This document shows positions 5,927 through 15,077 of a stretch of DNA of 21,931 nucleotides, piece after piece. The position numbers were made by a program, and so were the translations under genes. Within the stretch, counting starts at the first letter, position 1. Each line of letters starts with the position of its first letter. The DNA comes from a virus, in IMG/VR virus record IMGVR_UViG_3300010334_006995, positions 1 to 21,931 of that record; one strand, written 5' to 3'. The notes beneath the pieces were generated by a model. It was not told the origin of the DNA, did no database searches, and saw only the letters and a list, made by a program, of their open reading frames with translations.

Positions 5927-8185
5927 TTATAGCTTACATGCACCACTAGAGCAATCAGCTTCTTTATTTGTCGACTGCTCTTTATCGCCATCATCCGTGT
6001 TATTGTAATATAAACTTATAAGACCCATACTATAAGCATACATTAGCTCTTTCATTACTTTTGCATCAGGTAGAACATTATTTTCATATTGACTGTAGTT
6101 GTAATAAATGTTAGTCGAAATAGCCATATCAATATATTTTTGTATAACAGCATTTATATTAATAATACCCGTATTGTCTTTAAAATTATAAGCTAATTCG
6201 TAATTTGAATCATATTTTCCAATACCCGGAACAAGCACCGGTAATTTACCCATCTTAGACATCTTGTATGTTATTAATGACCGTACTGGCTCTACACCAT
6301 TGGTAGAGCATTGTATTACAGAGCTTGACTCGCAAGGCATACAGCAGGAAAGTGTTGAATGTCTGAGACCAAATTCTTTTATTTGCTCGCGCAAGCTCTT
6401 CCAGTCAAGCGATAATTTTCTTTTTAAAATTTCATCAACATTTTTCTTATAGGTATCAATTGAAAGGATACCTTTGGCAAATTTTGTTCGTTCATATTTT
6501 TCACACTTACCCTTCTCTTTAGCTAGCTTATTACTCGAAGAAAGAAGATAATATTGAAAATGTTCCATCCATTCATCAATTAAAACTAGTGCCTGTTTGG
6601 AGTTATATGATACTTCATTCTTAGCTAAGAACGCAGCAAGATTGGTGATCCCTATACCTAAGCTTCTTCTTTTTTTAGCAAAATTTTCTGCTGCTTTATT
6701 GAAGTAGTATTGTATATCAATTATTTCCTCTAAAAATCTTACCGCAAGATCACATGTTTTCTCAAGGTCTTTCCAATCTTTAATCTCAAGCATATTAATT
6801 GCAGACAAGATACACATGCCTATCTCACCATCTGAATCATGATAGTCTTTAAGAGGTATGGTGGGGTGTAGTACTTCAGTACAAAGATTACTCATTGTTA
6901 CCTTATCCAGCCAAGGAGTGTGTTCATTTGCTGTATCTACGTTTAAAATATAGATGCGACCGGTCTCAACACGCTCCTTAATAATTAGAGAAAATAGCTT
7001 ACGAGCTGATATTTTCTTTTTAAGTTTAATTTTTTTATCTGATTCACACTCTTCATACACTTTATTAAATCGTGATGTACCCCATGCTTCATATAGATGT
7101 GGTACTTCAGCGGGGCTAAATAGAGTTATATTTTCATTTTTTATTACTCTGTCATAAAAAAGCTTTGACATACCCACTGTGTAATCAAGCTTACGAACTC
7201 TATTATCATCAGTACCTGCATTATTTTTAAGTACAACAATATCATCAATTTCATAATGCCACCACTGAACATTAACTGTAGCTGAACCACCTCTTAAGCC
7301 ATTCTGCTGCCATGCTTTAACTGAAGCTTCATAAATCTTTAAAAACGGAATCAGACCAGTATGAACTACTTCACCGTTATTAACAGATGAACCAATAGCT
7401 CTTATTTTAGAGACATCAATACCAATGCCACATCTACTCGCAGTAGCAATTGATATAGCTGTACCGGATGCTGTAATTGACTCCTTTGTGTCATCGACAC
7501 CTATCAAGCAACAACTTGCATAGCTTTTCGATCTCGATCTCACACCTGCCATAATAGGTGTAGGTAGATTAATCTTATGTCTTGAAATAGCGTTATAAAA
7601 CCTTCTTACATATTCTAACCGAGCTTCTGCTGGATAATTTATAAACGCATACATAGCTATGAGAATATAAGCAAATTGAGGTGTTTCAAAAATCTTATCT
7701 GTGACTCTATTTTTAATTAGGTATTTGTCACAAAGCTGTTTTATGCCAGCGTAAGTAAATAAAAAGTCTCTATCATGATCAATATATTCACCGATTTTGT
7801 TTATTTCATCTTCAGAGTATTTTTCAATTATATTAGGGTCATAAATTTCTTTTCTAAGTCCAGAGTTAATTACATCGAGCAACCGCGGAGGGTGCTTACC
7901 ACCCCACACATCTTTACGTAATTGATAATTTAATAATCTCCCTGCAACATATTGATAATTTGGTTTTTCAAGTGATATTAAATTTGCTGCCGATTCAATT
8001 AAGACTTGGTGTATATCTTGTGTAGAGATATTTTCTGTTATATTAAGTTTTGAATTAATTTCTACTTCCGATAAGCTTACACCGCTTATACCTTCAACCG
8101 CCCATGAGATTACCTTATTAATCTTTTCAATATTAAATTTTTCTGCCTGACCGTTGCGTTTTTTTACGAATATTTGAGTGCTCAT
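5927..8185 (-). CDS. nrdA: Ribonucleoside-diphosphate reductase, class Ia alpha subunit
   Basis: This 752-residue protein is full length for the E. coli/T4 type. Residues 1-95 form an ATP cone (VKKRNGQAEKFNIEKINKVI). The active-site thiols are Cys225 (SYASCCLIG), Cys435 in NLCTE (with Asn433 and Glu437) and Cys458 (GMCILSA). The radical-transfer tyrosines are Tyr726/Tyr727 (LYYNNT). The C-terminal redox pair is Cys745/Cys750 (ADCSSGACKL). It reduces NDPs to dNDPs with NrdB. The loop corresponding to E. coli MPSETSS is cysteine-rich here (LSCCMPCESSS, Cys614, 615, 618, plus Cys626). The ATG is preceded by CACTACAT with no Shine-Dalgarno site; an ATAAATA motif lies 19 bases upstream. Confidence 0.97.
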   Translation of the reverse strand: MSTQIFVKKRNGQAEKFNIEKINKVISWAVEGISGVSLSEVEINSKLNITENISTQDIHQVLIESAANLISLEKPNYQYVAGRLLNYQLRKDVWGGKHPPRLLDVINSGLRKEIYDPNIIEKYSEDEINKIGEYIDHDRDFLFTYAGIKQLCDKYLIKNRVTDKIFETPQFAYILIAMYAFINYPAEARLEYVRRFYNAISRHKINLPTPIMAGVRSRSKSYASCCLIGVDDTKESITASGTAISIATASRCGIGIDVSKIRAIGSSVNNGEVVHTGLIPFLKIYEASVKAWQQNGLRGGSATVNVQWWHYEIDDIVVLKNNAGTDDNRVRKLDYTVGMSKLFYDRVIKNENITLFSPAEVPHLYEAWGTSRFNKVYEECESDKKIKLKKKISARKLFSLIIKERVETGRIYILNVDTANEHTPWLDKVTMSNLCTEVLHPTIPLKDYHDSDGEIGMCILSAINMLEIKDWKDLEKTCDLAVRFLEEIIDIQYYFNKAAENFAKKRRSLGIGITNLAAFLAKNEVSYNSKQALVLIDEWMEHFQYYLLSSSNKLAKEKGKCEKYERTKFAKGILSIDTYKKNVDEILKRKLSLDWKSLREQIKEFGLRHSTLSCCMPCESSSVIQCSTNGVEPVRSLITYKMSKMGKLPVLVPGIGKYDSNYELAYNFKDNTGIININAVIQKYIDMAISTNIYYNYSQYENNVLPDAKVMKELMYAYSMGLISLYYNNTDDGDKEQSTNKEADCSSGACKL

Positions 8186-8204
8186 ATGTAGTGAAACAAA
8201 AAAG

Positions 8205-8211
8205 TATTTAT
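8205..8211 (-). promoter_or_regulatory. Late-promoter-like ATAAATA upstream of nrdA
   Basis: The minus strand reads CCATAAATACTTTTTTG just ahead of nrdA, with the ATAAATA core ending 19 bases before the ATG. The spacing is longer than at most other copies in the window and would leave a real leader of about a dozen bases. Only the motif supports this; RNR genes are usually expressed early or middle in T4, so a late element here would be unusual. Confidence 0.35.
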
Positions 8212-8218
8212 GGTATTC

Positions 8219-9541: not shown

Positions 9542-10780
9542 ATGGCTGATATAGTTACAAAGATACAATTTAGACAAGGAACTGATGCACAAAGACGTAC
9601 CGCTAACAGTACCGGTATAGTATTCAGTACCGGTGAGCCAGGGTTCTGTATTGATACAAAAAGAGTTTTTATAGGCGGTGATTCATTTGCCGGTGGGTGG
9701 CCAGTAGGCATACAAAATATTGGCTTTGCTAATAAATTATTCGGCACATCGACAAACGGATTTACTACCGAAGCCTTAGGTCTCTTTAATTCAAAAGGCG
9801 CTGCTCTTGGTGATATCATTTACGATAAAGACACAAGAGGTATTTACGCATTAACTGCTGTTAGTTCTTTTCCTCCTTTGTCATCAGATTTTGTAAAGTA
9901 TGATTCTTCCCCCTTACTAGACAGTACACAATTTCAGTATAATAGCCAAAAAGAACTTCAGATAAAACAGGGCGGAGTAGGTCCACAGCAATTAGGCTTT
10001 ACTACAGTAGATAATATTACACTAGCAAAGCCGTCATATGCCTCACCACTACAATTAAAATCTAACGGTGTAGCAAACGGGTATCTTGCACAAATGTTAC
10101 CTTATACTGTTAAGATTAATAATAGATCCAGTACTAGTGACCCTACAGATCAGATAATATTACCCAACCATGTCTTAGGAAGAACAAGCACATCAGTTTT
10201 AACATCTGTTCCGTTTGAAGCAATATTTCAAGAAGCAAACTATGTTGGTGATAACGGAATATTAATCGATAAAACTCTCGCAGCACCAAAGTTTTACCTC
10301 GATACAGCAATGTTATCTTCTGCACCACTTAAACTCTATCTAAAGAAAGATACCGATGTACAAGGCAACCTTGGTGTTACTGGTATAATCACCGGTTCTA
10401 GCAGTCTCTCACTAGCTGGTAATGCTACCGTTCAGGGAACAATATATTGCAGAAATGATATTATTGCATATCAACCGCCTTCGGATATTAAAATAAAAGA
10501 TAATGTTAAGATAATCGAGAGCCCTATAGAAAAAGTAAAGCAGCTAAATGGTTGTTCCTTTACATTTAATCAAGATGCCCCAGAGCATCTACAGAACAAA
10601 TCTTCATATGGTCTTATTGCACAGGATGTTGAAAAGGTATTGCCTCATGCTATTGAAGAGCGTCATACCGGTATTAAGGGTGTAAACTACAACAACATAA
10701 CGCCTCTTCTTGTTGAATGTATAAAAAAGTTATCTGAAAAAGTTGAAGCCTTAGAAAATGAAATTCGAAAATCTAGTTAA
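9542..10780 (+). CDS. Tail fibre protein with C-terminal S74 intramolecular chaperone
   Basis: This 412-residue protein starts MADIVTKIQFRQGTDAQRR, a head common in marine phage fibres, followed by TGEPGFCIDTKRVFIGG. The middle is beta-rich and of low recognisability. The C-terminal 99 residues form a peptidase S74 domain: QPPSDIKIKDN at 311-321 with catalytic Ser314 and a downstream lysine, then GLIAQDVEKVLPHAI and GVNYNNITPLLVECIKKL, ending in a coiled coil (LSEKVEALENEI). S74 domains trimerise a fibre or spike and cut themselves off, in this case presumably before Ser314. It is the only fibre gene in the window that carries the chaperone. An ATAAATA motif precedes the start. The next small gene overlaps its 3' end by 23 bases. 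Confidence 0.85.
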   Translation: MADIVTKIQFRQGTDAQRRTANSTGIVFSTGEPGFCIDTKRVFIGGDSFAGGWPVGIQNIGFANKLFGTSTNGFTTEALGLFNSKGAALGDIIYDKDTRGIYALTAVSSFPPLSSDFVKYDSSPLLDSTQFQYNSQKELQIKQGGVGPQQLGFTTVDNITLAKPSYASPLQLKSNGVANGYLAQMLPYTVKINNRSSTSDPTDQIILPNHVLGRTSTSVLTSVPFEAIFQEANYVGDNGILIDKTLAAPKFYLDTAMLSSAPLKLYLKKDTDVQGNLGVTGIITGSSSLSLAGNATVQGTIYCRNDIIAYQPPSDIKIKDNVKIIESPIEKVKQLNGCSFTFNQDAPEHLQNKSSYGLIAQDVEKVLPHAIEERHTGIKGVNYNNITPLLVECIKKLSEKVEALENEIRKSS

Positions 10781-10952
10781 ATCTATCTTAGAAGATTTTA
10801 ATATATCCCCGCAATCGCAAGCCGTATCAAGCACTGGACCGGATTGCGGTATGACAAGCGGCGATATGAGTAATACTTTTCCTAGTAAAATGGAGACAGT
10901 AAAGTTTAAGCTAAAGAATAAAAAAATTAAGAAGAAGCTAAGAAGAGACTGA
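10758..10952 (+). CDS. Small basic protein with capsid-targeting-like N-terminus
   Basis: This 64-residue protein begins MKFENLVKSILEDFN and ends with a strongly basic tail (KFKLKNKKIKKKLRRD). The N-terminal amphipathic stretch followed by I-L-E resembles the T4 capsid-targeting propeptides of internal proteins, which the prohead protease gp21 cuts after (L/I)-x-E. If cut after residue 12, the mature product would be a 52-residue basic peptide, suited to DNA binding inside the head. The gene overlaps the end of the S74 fibre gene by 23 bases in another frame and the convergent lysozyme gene by 26 bases. The coding assignment is moderately supported; the packaging role is inference. Confidence 0.55.
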   Translation: MKFENLVKSILEDFNISPQSQAVSSTGPDCGMTSGDMSNTFPSKMETVKFKLKNKKIKKKLRRD

Positions 10953-12737: not shown

Positions 12738-13010
12738 TCAAACATTATTAATAGCAGAGGATAAATCCTTATGAAGATTGCTCATACTAGTAAGAATATA
12801 CAGATAGTCTTCCTTTAAGCCGCGAGATGCTCTTTTTGTCATGTTGTTAAGCTCGGAGGCTATTCTCTTCTTTAAAATTGATTCTTCGTCTTCTTGATTA
12901 TGGATAGCATCATACTCCTTCGGTGCATATGCATAAGAATCAGTACTTCTTGTGGTATGATTAATACCTGCACGATATGCTTCACTTATAGCTTTATGAT
13001 CTTTAGTCAC
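12738..13010 (-). CDS. Small protein with capsid-targeting-like N-terminus (GTG start)
   Basis: This 90-residue protein reads from GTG at 13010. It starts MTKDHKAISEAYRAG, followed by a polar Tyr/Asp-rich middle and a helical C-terminal half (ILKKRIASELNNMTKRAS, YILTSMSNLHKDLSSAI). The first ten residues end in I-S-E before Ala-Tyr, matching both the length and the (L/I)-x-E cut site of T4 internal protein targeting peptides (MKTYQEFIAE in IPIII). The gene at 13656-13979 has a related start. No other family is recognised. An ATAAATA motif ends 5 bases upstream, within a palindrome shared with the divergent zinc-ribbon gene. Confidence 0.65.
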   Translation of the reverse strand: MTKDHKAISEAYRAGINHTTRSTDSYAYAPKEYDAIHNQEDEESILKKRIASELNNMTKRASRGLKEDYLYILTSMSNLHKDLSSAINNV

Positions 13011-13022
13011 CTAAATATTTAT
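13011..13022. promoter_or_regulatory. Overlapping bidirectional late-promoter-like element
   Basis: The sequence CTAAATATTTAT reads as CTAAATA on the plus strand (13011-13017) and as ATAAATA on the minus strand (13022-13016), so two late-type motifs overlap head to head. The minus copy ends 5 bases before the GTG at 13010 and the plus copy 9 bases before the ATG at 13027. Only 16 bases separate the two start codons. Confidence 0.5.
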
Positions 13023-13026
13023 GTAA

Positions 13027-13257
13027 ATGAAGAAGGGTTCTCTACGAAAAACGCTTGCCGCTCAAATAATGCTAGATAATGCCGATTGTTATAAAGTATG
13101 TTTAGGGTGTGAATCTGTAATACTTTATAGTAGTACCTTCTGTCCATTATGTGATGGATACAGATTTGATAAAAATGTAGAGCAAGTCATTAAATTTATA
13201 AAAGCTCTAACAAAAAAAGATAATACGACTATTTTACCACCTGATCAGCAGTTTTAA
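13027..13257 (+). CDS. Small zinc-ribbon protein
   Basis: This 76-residue protein has a basic N-terminus (MKKGSLRKTLAAQ) followed by a zinc-ribbon core: CxxC at Cys25/Cys28 (YKVCLGCES) and CxxC at Cys39/Cys42 (STFCPLCDGYRF), with an additional Cys21. The spacing of 10 residues between pairs fits a single zinc knuckle hairpin. The C-terminal part is helical (VEQVIKFIKALTKK). Such ribbons bind nucleic acid or protein partners, and no specific role can be given. It is divergent from the gene at 12738 and its last 29 bases overlap the convergent 55-residue ORF. Confidence 0.75.
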   Translation: MKKGSLRKTLAAQIMLDNADCYKVCLGCESVILYSSTFCPLCDGYRFDKNVEQVIKFIKALTKKDNTTILPPDQQF

Positions 13258-13396
13258 TATATTCGTTTAAATGATGAGAGAGGAAAATTACTTTTCTCAT
13301 CAATTCTTCTTTTTTGGTAAGCTTCTTTTCCTTCTTTGCCTTAGCGTATAGATCTAATACCGCATCAGCGGTAACTTTTTTTCTTTCCGCACTCAT
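13229..13396 (-). CDS. Small lysine-rich helical protein (55 aa)
   Basis: Reading from ATG at 13396, the frame encodes 55 residues: MSAERKKVTADAVLDLYAKA, KKEKKLTKKEELMRKVIFLS, then HHLNEYIKTADQVVK and TAG. The composition is lysine-rich and helical without low-complexity artefacts. The start is preceded by AATAAATATTA, the same element seen ahead of other genes here, which supports a real gene. It converges on and overlaps the zinc-ribbon gene by 29 bases. No family is recognised; a small nucleic-acid or protein-binding role would fit the charge. Confidence 0.65.
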   Translation of the reverse strand: MSAERKKVTADAVLDLYAKAKKEKKLTKKEELMRKVIFLSHHLNEYIKTADQVVK

Positions 13397-13401
13397 ATTA
13401 A

Positions 13402-13408
13402 TATTTAT
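13402..13408 (-). promoter_or_regulatory. Late-promoter-like ATAAATA
   Basis: The minus strand reads AAATAAATATTAATATG: the ATAAATA core ends 5 bases before the ATG of the 55-residue ORF at 13396. There is no Shine-Dalgarno sequence. Confidence 0.45.
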
Positions 13409-13452
13409 TTTATAACCAGTTGCTTTTCGTTCAAGTTATAATAAAAATATCT

Positions 13453-13647
13453 ATGTCAAACATTAATCCTCTAACACTTCAAGAACACGTTGCAACCTTT
13501 ACTGCCGAATACGAAAAGTTTTCTGGCGGTAATAATGCCGCAGGTACTCGTACCCGCAAAGCCCTTCAGGAGGTAATTAAGTTTGCCCGTGAAGCACGCA
13601 AAGGTGTTCAAGAAGAAAAGAATGCCCGCAAGGCTGCTAAAAAGTAA
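13453..13647 (+). CDS. Histone H1/Hc1-like DNA-binding protein
   Basis: The chosen ATG at 13453 gives 64 residues (MSNINPLTLQEHVATF...). An upstream in-frame ATG at 13420 would add MLFVQVIIKIS, which does not fit the family. The core GGNNAAGTRTRKALQEVIKF followed by AREARKGVQEEKNARKAAKK matches the pattern K/G-N-x-AAGTR-x-RK-x-(L/M)Q-x-(L/I) of bacterial histone H1-like Hc1 proteins, well known in Chlamydia and common as short proteins in Bacteroidota. It is basic at the C-terminus. It would bind and compact DNA, either the host chromosome or phage DNA in the head. No clear Shine-Dalgarno sequence is seen. It converges on the gene at 13656 with an 8-base gap. Confidence 0.75.
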   Translation: MSNINPLTLQEHVATFTAEYEKFSGGNNAAGTRTRKALQEVIKFAREARKGVQEEKNARKAAKK

Positions 13648-13655
13648 TTTTTAGT

Positions 13656-13979
13656 TTATTTCTTTATTCCAAGCTGTCGCTTTCGCTCATTACGGTGAAC
13701 GGAAGCGATAGTTTGGATTATATCAGTCGCTCTCTGAAAAGTATCGACTGTCTTATAAATCGCGTCAACTATTTCATACGCTGCATGTACAGCTTTACGC
13801 TCGGTATTAATATCTTCTAAAGCAATCTTCTGTTCCTTCTTTTCTTTCTTCTCTTCATTCTCTGCAGCAGGTGGTCTAACCGGTGCTACAACAACCTGTT
13901 TTGGTTGAGTACTATTAGAAACAGCAGGAACTCCTTGTGATGTATATGCTTCAAATATAAGATGAATGTCTTTATTCAC
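13656..13979 (-). CDS. Protein with capsid-targeting-like N-terminus, proline linker and basic tail (GTG start)
   Basis: This 107-residue protein reads from GTG at 13979. It starts MNKDIHLIFEAYTSQG. The first ten residues end in I-F-E before Ala-Tyr, the layout of T4 capsid-targeting peptides, and share KD..I.EAY with the protein at 12738-13010. A low-complexity linker follows (PVRPPAAENEEKKEKKEQK), then a helical segment (AYEIVDAIYKTVDTFQRAT) and a basic end (HRNERKRQLGIKK). There is no signal peptide or membrane segment. Function is unknown; an internal head protein or scaffold component is the best inference. Upstream sequence is AT-rich (AAATAATAATA) without a Shine-Dalgarno site. Confidence 0.65.
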   Translation of the reverse strand: MNKDIHLIFEAYTSQGVPAVSNSTQPKQVVVAPVRPPAAENEEKKEKKEQKIALEDINTERKAVHAAYEIVDAIYKTVDTFQRATDIIQTIASVHRNERKRQLGIKK

Positions 13980-14002
13980 TATTATTATTTAATCTTTTTA
14001 GA

Positions 14003-14015: not shown

Positions 14016-15077
14016 ATGGCTGACACCTCTATATCTGGATTAACAAGGCAAAATACAGCTACATCTAACTTAATTGTACCTATTTCAGATGGAACAAATA
14101 CCATCGGAGTGCCGATTAGCGCTATTGTTACTGCTTCAGGAAGTATGGGAACAAGTTATCTGCAGCTTCCTGTTGGTGCGAATCAACCTGCAGGTGTAGA
14201 AGGGGCTATTAGATATAACAGCACACTTAAGGCAATAGAATATTACAATGGCACAAAGTGGGTTGGACCCAATTATAATATTGAATATTTAGTCATTGGT
14301 GGTGGTGGGTCAGGAGGAGGTCAATATGGTGGCGGTGGCGGAGGAGCTGGTGCTTACCTTACCTCTAGCATGACCTTGATAAATGGTAAAAGTTATGCAA
14401 TTGTAGTTGGAAATGGGGGTATTAGTGGAACCGGTGCGGGTAACAACGGCTCAGATTCCTCTTTGGATTTCATTATTGCTACAGGGGGGGGAGGAGGAGG
14501 AACCTATTCAAACGTTGTTGGTAAAAATGGAGGTTCTGGTGGAGGGGGTGGGTCTCATGACTGTAATGGCGGTCAAAGTGGATGCACAGTGGCAGGAGGC
14601 ACAGGAATAACTGGTCAAGGTAATGGTGGAGGTATTGGTGGACGAAGTGGCGCCCCGCTTGGTGGCGGTGGAGGTGGAGGAGCTGGTGGGGCTGGGGGCT
14701 CATATTACACCGGTGCTACTGGTGGAGTTGGGCTGGCTAGCTCAATCACGGGAACTAGTGTATTTAGAGCTGGTGGTGGCGGTGGTGGCGGCGGTGTAGG
14801 AGCTCCTGCATACAGCGGTGGTAATGGTGGTGGGGGAGCAGGATCTTCGGTATCTGGTGGTGTAGGTACCGCTGGTACAGCTAACACTGGTGGAGGTGGT
14901 GGCGGTGGAGGGTATTACGGCGCATGCGCCGGTGGCGCTGGCGGGTCGGGCGTTGTCATATTGAGAATACCCACTGCAAATTATAGCAGCATATATACAG
15001 GGTCACCGACAATAACTACTGATGGAGCGTTTACTATTTTAACCTATACATCAGGTACAGGATCTTATACTGCGTAA
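14016..15077 (+). CDS. Glycine-rich tail fibre / adhesin
   Basis: This 353-residue protein has a head MADTSISGLTRQNTATSN and IVPISDGTNTIGVPISAIV, a divergent version of the module shared by the downstream fibre genes. Residues about 50-90 (PAGVEGAIRYNSTLKAIEYY, NGTKWVG) form a small beta domain common in phage fibres. From about residue 91 (YLVIGGGGSGGG) to 315 the protein is dominated by glycine tracts interrupted by short varied loops, ending GGAGGSGVVILRIP. Such sequences form polyglycine-II bundles whose loops contact receptors, as in T2-type gp38 adhesins and many marine phage fibres. The glycine region is far more GC-rich than its surroundings and includes a run of eight G. The next gene begins 5 bases after the stop. 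Confidence 0.8.
   Translation: MADTSISGLTRQNTATSNLIVPISDGTNTIGVPISAIVTASGSMGTSYLQLPVGANQPAGVEGAIRYNSTLKAIEYYNGTKWVGPNYNIEYLVIGGGGSGGGQYGGGGGGAGAYLTSSMTLINGKSYAIVVGNGGISGTGAGNNGSDSSLDFIIATGGGGGGTYSNVVGKNGGSGGGGGSHDCNGGQSGCTVAGGTGITGQGNGGGIGGRSGAPLGGGGGGGAGGAGGSYYTGATGGVGLASSITGTSVFRAGGGGGGGGVGAPAYSGGNGGGGAGSSVSGGVGTAGTANTGGGGGGGGYYGACAGGAGGSGVVILRIPTANYSSIYTGSPTITTDGAFTILTYTSGTGSYTA
14484..14491 (+). repeat. G8 homopolymer in glycine-rich fibre gene
   Basis: Eight consecutive G followed by AGGAGGAGG lie in the glycine-rich coding part of the adhesin. It is the longest G run in this AT-rich window and a possible slippage site. Confidence 0.9.

Follow-up and report, generated by a model that had tools for sequence, protein, structure and literature searches.

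Do the small proteins encoded at this locus carry an address that sends them into the phage head? The DNA analyzed (the window) is the complete IMG/VR record IMGVR_UViG_3300010334_006995, 21,931 bp long. A sequence-only reading had proposed that it encodes a set of capsid-packaged internal proteins with T4-style targeting peptides ending in (L/I)-x-E. The gene content marks the window as a fragment of a T4-like myovirus: it includes a baseplate hub with an OB domain, a lysozyme and a phosphoribosyltransferase, and ribonucleotide reductase and tail-fibre genes were identified from the translations. A DNA-level comparison of the region with cultured phages gave no match, and a search of the window detected neither gp21 nor gp23. 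The features discussed below are as follows, with an arrow for each predicted cut.

13656..13979, minus strand: clear tagged protein, 107 amino acids, in which a disordered linker joins the tag to a C-terminal helical hairpin whose end is basic
13944..13979, minus strand: 12-residue tag MNKDIHLIFE↓AY, predicted gp21 cut after E10 at bases 13950/13949
13986..13991, minus strand: late-promoter-like TAAATA ending 6 nt upstream of the GTG, identified from the sequence and the 5-6 nt spacing peak in relatives
12738..13010, minus strand: probable but weaker tagged protein, 90 amino acids, with (I/L)-x-E at residues 8-10 in seven of nine homologues
12975..13010, minus strand: 12-residue tag MTKDHKAISE↓AY, predicted cut after E10 at bases 12981/12980
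13016..13021, minus strand: late-promoter-like TAAATA ending 5 nt upstream of the GTG, conserved in homologues
10758..10952, plus strand: third candidate, 64 amino acids, starting MKFENLVKSILEDF; membership in the tag class not supported
13453..13647, plus strand: Hc1-like (histone H1-like) protein, a conserved untagged neighbour (Pfam PF07432, E 5.5e-15)
13027..13257, plus strand: zinc-ribbon-like protein, a conserved untagged neighbour (weak Pfam match, E 0.004)

Two minus-strand genes that start with GTG, at 13656-13979 and 12738-13010, encode the N-termini MNKDIHLIFEAY and MTKDHKAISEAY, respectively. Their starts are well fixed by the TAAATA boxes and by in-frame stops, which lie three codons before the GTG at 13979 and immediately before the GTG at 13010. 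A pattern fitting both tags matches the window exactly twice, compared to no match in 100 dinucleotide shuffles. Profile-profile comparison aligned the two families at residues 1-18 (E 1.8e-5) and nowhere else, so the proteins were correctly described as otherwise unrelated. The basic tails noted earlier on two proteins are present at 13656 and 10758 and absent at 12738.

All eight homologues aligned with the 13656 protein retain its tag, at identities down to 38%. A more distant homologue, in L233, has a different start, and the syntenic counterpart in locus L010 (11740-12060) starts MLKDSRYIADAY, with Asp at position 10. The AlphaFold model has helices at residues 5-13, 59-77 and 81-105; the pLDDT is above 90 in the hairpin and below 50 in the linker (16-53). 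A fold search with this model against viral structures returned no match. The 13656 protein is a clear member of the tag class. In the 12738 family, the proposed I-x-E end holds for seven of nine homologues, which have (I/L)-x-E at 8-10. The other two lack E10: L007 has Lys at this position, and L010 carries I-Y-E at residues 11-13. Residue 7 in the family is A or S, and conservation is higher in the stretch that follows the tag than in the tag itself. The AlphaFold model of this protein consists of a helix at 3-13, a linker and a helical hairpin (31-63 and 66-89). It is a probable, weaker member of the class.

Membership of the third protein assigned to the set is not supported. The 10758-10952 protein has no M-N-K-D address, its start codon falls within the end of the tail-fibre gene, and EDFN and the body are more conserved than the leader. 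The leader varies from 8 to 12 residues across homologues, and the protein does not have a shared address peptide of fixed length. The Hc1-like histone and the zinc ribbon had been counted in the same cluster. The former is real, but its gene should start with the ATG at 13453, not at 13420, its homologues begin MSNINPLTL, and it has no tag. The C-x-x-C pairs of the latter are conserved in homologues despite the weak Pfam score, but it is not tagged either.

The 13656 protein was used to search for relatives, and nine homologues and locus L010, on a 193-kb contig, were recovered. The match in L010 is to the first 12 residues alone, on an unrelated 256-residue protein. L010 is syntenic with the window and encodes a series of other proteins that begin in this way, among them an AdoMet decarboxylase (7760-8212). 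Scanning IMG/VR for MN(K/N/D/E)DxxLxxEAY at a start codon gave at least 120 stretches, and two variant patterns gave 25 and 13. Removal of copies and of matches far inside ORFs left at least 117 distinct tagged proteins. The 114 that were long enough were clustered without their first 14 residues and, among the matches listed, formed at least 47 clusters with no similarity detectable beyond the tag; single contigs carry up to seven tagged proteins. The tag consensus in these related uncultured T4-like phages is M-N-K-D-x-x-L-(I/L)-x-E-A-Y. Conservation, calculated with one representative per cluster, is strong through residue 12 and falls to about 1 bit at residue 13 and beyond. In an alignment of 62 tagged proteins among the matches listed, M1, D4, E10, A11, Y12 and little else are invariant. 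The third codon positions of the tag are free to vary while the amino acids are fixed, which points to selection on its protein sequence. The expectation that related phages would have the same start on unrelated proteins was borne out. Given its occurrence on at least 47 otherwise unrelated proteins, the tag very probably serves as a removable address that directs its carriers into the phage head, to be injected into the host.

Part of the tag conservation is imposed by the search pattern, and the controls therefore matter. A looser pattern gave 55 matches in 30 tag-bearing contigs compared to none when reversed. The 257 Gb of bacterial and archaeal genomes contained two pattern matches, both by chance: one is deep inside a bacterial ORF and the other starts an apparent bacterial deaminase. 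The new tag was not detected in nine cultured phages (T4 included; eight commonly classed as T4-like), and tblastn of a 20-residue tag peptide and of three cargo proteins against cultured phages returned no match. For retrieval free of this bias, the commonest cargo family (about 300 residues) was searched with residues 40 onward only. D4, E10, Y12 and a second site, (L/I/V/F)-x-E, are present in 31 of the 32 distinct homologues fetched by their bodies, with S or M in place of A11 in a few. The sole exception, L286, has an internal start chosen by the script, and the L057 protein on the same contig is tagged. Matches to MNKDVNF(I/L)REAYP about 85 codons inside a larger ORF of an unrelated family (MNKDVNFIREAYP) were excluded because they are not N-terminal. 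They occur in L052, L059, L061 and L065 and also in L073, L112, L115 and L126, and reflect either homology that preserves a match within the ORF or translation from an internal start.

In the T4 IPIII address, residues 4 and 7 function in targeting and residues 8 and 10 in processing (PMC9026906). T4 gp21 cuts after (L/I)-x-E, internal-protein propeptides are 10-19 residues long, and an Asp at position 10 stops processing but not targeting (PMC9026906). The fixed positions of the new tag are 4, 7, 8 and 10, exactly the targeting and processing positions of T4. In both window proteins (L/I)-x-E at 8-10 is followed by a small residue (LIFE↓A in 13656 and AISE↓A in 12738). A second (L/I)-x-E lies within residues 13-26 in 21 of 47 clusters among the matches listed, compared to 5.9 ± 2.2 for shuffled tails; later stretches have the motif in 2-9 of these clusters. 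All 25 aligned members of the 300-residue family have the second Glu (E21), with a hydrophobic residue at P3 and usually Ala-Pro after the Glu, and the distance between the two sites varies by indels.

The genes for gp21 and gp23 are on the same 16 of 30 tag-bearing contigs, and on 12 of the 13 contigs longer than 100 kb. The gp21 of tag-bearing phages keeps H85 and S140 of T4 gp21, which we take to be the catalytic residues. The major capsid protein has one Glu only between the conserved ENQE and the conserved body, which makes a cut after this Glu likely. Its contexts are C-F/M-E↓A/S, V-N-E↓A, I-N-E↓G or L-K-E↓N. The probable cut site of the capsid protein is mostly C-F-E↓A and not (L/I)-x-E. 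The frequent Cys at capsid P3, in place of L or I, is the weakest point of the gp21 comparison.

These data point to MNKDxxL(I/L)xE↓AY as a capsid-targeting sequence of a second class, cut by gp21, in uncultured T4-like phages, and we assign this reading a probability of about 0.74. In the mechanism that we infer, which extends from docking on the core to an anti-defence role, the tagged proteins would be synthesized at the late stage of infection. The tag would form a short helix and dock on the prohead scaffold core via residues around 4 and 7, and gp21 would cut after E10 and often also at a second (L/I/V)-x-E about 10 residues further on. The mature cargo would be kept in the head with the DNA and would enter the next host with it. 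The proposal of a T4-style targeting peptide ending in (L/I)-x-E has strong support in the related phages and agrees with the T4 residue map, but it does not extend to the third ORF or the untagged neighbours.

The most serious alternative is that the tag is an uncut docking helix for the tail, baseplate, membrane or replication site, with E-A-Y as the docking surface. Contrary to a cut tag, the spacing of L7, I8, A11 and (I/V)15 also fits an amphipathic helix, and the conserved residues could be those of a docking helix that is never cut. The tag is helical in the AlphaFold models of both window proteins, a hydrophobic Ala-rich stretch follows it on some cargo, and these phages already have T4-type starts, which would allow the new tag a different destination. 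However, the fixed positions match the T4 targeting and processing residues (PMC9026906), and one continuous helix does not readily explain a second (L/I/V)-x-E whose distance varies. The modular use of the tag on enzymes such as AdoMet decarboxylase and lysozyme also speaks against this alternative, which we regard as unlikely.

Descent of all tagged proteins from one gene, with bodies diverged beyond recognition, is very unlikely. It would agree with the tag, linker and helical hairpin modelled for both window proteins and with the tandem runs of some clusters, but the cargo has unrelated known folds (AdoMet decarboxylase, lysozyme and DUF7336) and the profiles of the window families match over residues 1-18 only. 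Cargo searches with Pfam, PHROGs and PADLOC mostly gave no match, and a PDB profile search with the 300-residue family gave nothing significant. The mature cargo has a median pI of 6.1, with values above 8 in 15 of 47 clusters, and a median length of 127-137 residues (both among the matches listed); it is not generally basic and does not conform to the small basic type. Small basic proteins are typical of the T4 internal set, but these properties are not required to target foreign proteins (PMC9026906). In the AdoMet decarboxylase, the S-H-I-S-x-H-T-W motif is intact and a Cys aligns with the one in a solved enzyme, suggesting that it may be active; that it could lower AdoMet is speculation. 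An anti-defence role of the tagged cargo is a guess by analogy to T4 IPI and IPIII (PMC3012670; PMC9391042). An Ala-rich hydrophobic stretch resembling a signal peptide follows the tag in L150 (3-554, minus strand), L157 (547-1077, plus strand), L146 (3034-3666, plus strand) and L114, and one tagged protein with such a stretch has a lysozyme domain.

The shared start might instead be a nucleotide-level signal, such as a translation enhancer of leaderless late mRNAs. TAAATA stands 5-7 nt before the start of many tagged genes, both window genes included, and within 30 nt upstream of 83 of the 117 tagged starts among the matches listed. The other 34 have no box in this interval, the third codon positions vary freely under fixed amino acids, and only a handful of the ORFs with the box (45 in G009 and 49 in G007) are tagged. 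A nucleotide signal is accordingly a highly improbable explanation. About 37 ORFs in G009 (L022-L032) and about 46 in G007 (L033-L040) have a box whose end is 5 or 6 nt upstream of the start codon. The spacing peak in these contigs is sharp, and few ORFs have a Shine-Dalgarno sequence. Window starts with this box are 13010, 13396 and 13979. In T4, TAAATA is 9-46 nt from the start compared to 5 or 6 nt in the tag-bearing phages, and the late mRNAs of the latter would be leaderless if transcription starts as in T4.

Chance likeness of the two window N-termini, to which the degenerate 12738 tag of several homologues might point, is refuted for the tag as such by the reversed, 257-Gb and shuffle controls (55 versus 0, two matches, 0 of 100), the alignment of residues 1-18, the body-only retrieval (31 of 32) and the at least 47 clusters, and is improbable for the 12738 protein alone.

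The proposed second-class targeting sequence shares with T4 IPI, IPII and IPIII a ten-residue N-terminal address on unrelated proteins, a hydrophobic residue 8, Glu 10 and targeting positions 4 and 7 (PMC9026906). The T4 ipII and ipIII genes are transcribed beside the lysozyme gene e, and the window lysozyme is 1.1 kb from the nearer tagged gene. The earlier description of the peptides as T4-like is accurate for the geometry but not for the residues, which are N2, K3, D4 and L7 here compared to K2, T3, Y4 and F7 in T4. The T4 address has the aromatic residues Y4 and F7, whereas the new tag has D4 and L7 followed by A-Y, with A7 in 12738. T4 internal proteins are typically basic, whereas the new-tag cargo, in at least 47 clusters, is not generally so. 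With the same positions but different residues, the tag is classed as a variant rather than as the T4 address proper.

T4-type starts, which resemble MKTFKQFLxE, have the same geometry and are found in T4, in cyanophages and in 10 of 11 tag-bearing genomes tested. They differ from the new tag in their address residues and, as far as seen, in the proteins that carry them. The T4-type pattern is short, and its reversed form also matches now and then; among the nine cultured phages it recovers ipII and ipIII of T4, and several have similar starts. T4-type starts occur beside the new tag in G007, G010, G022, G029 and other tag-bearing contigs and in L036 and L041, for example MITFKQFLLE↓GG on a protein of about 400 residues (GGVAGHMAHPFDLPNV) and MKSFKEFILE. 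Their presence in the same genomes indicates that the new tag exists in addition to the T4-type class and does not replace it. In the giant phages phiKZ, SPN3US and 201phi2-1, head-interior propeptides are cut after Glu at redundant sites (PMC9026906). The protease of these phages is diverged, their head proteins are large, and no short shared 12-residue address is described for them in the literature searched. No earlier description of the MNKD tag was found in the literature searched, which was mostly outside subscription journals.

A tentative further reading, against which the odds lean somewhat, is that these phages use two capsid addresses side by side, with the same gp21 and different core partners, and that the MNKD set is a large, fast-changing arsenal. 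If so, two cargo sets, one with the T4-type MKTFKQFLxE and one with the new MNKDxxLIxEAY, would be loaded separately, and the MNKD arsenal would include lysozyme and AdoMet decarboxylase, the latter possibly draining the restriction-modification cofactor. Injected phage proteins are hard to recognise when they have nothing in common but a short address, and this tag is specific enough to find such proteins by pattern alone. The at least 47 clusters, nearly all without known function, are candidates for proteins that meet the first-line defences of the host. A second natural address for T4-type heads would also bear on cargo selection by the prohead core.

A different kind of repeated start is found elsewhere in the window. 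Between 14016 and 21446 on the plus strand, seven consecutive or nearly consecutive ORFs (at 14016, 15083, 17655, 18421, 19046, 19909 and 20727) have the common start MAD(V/T/I)(T/S)I and different C-terminal parts. L008 contains a similar set. These ORFs may form a cassette that encodes alternative fibres or adhesins.
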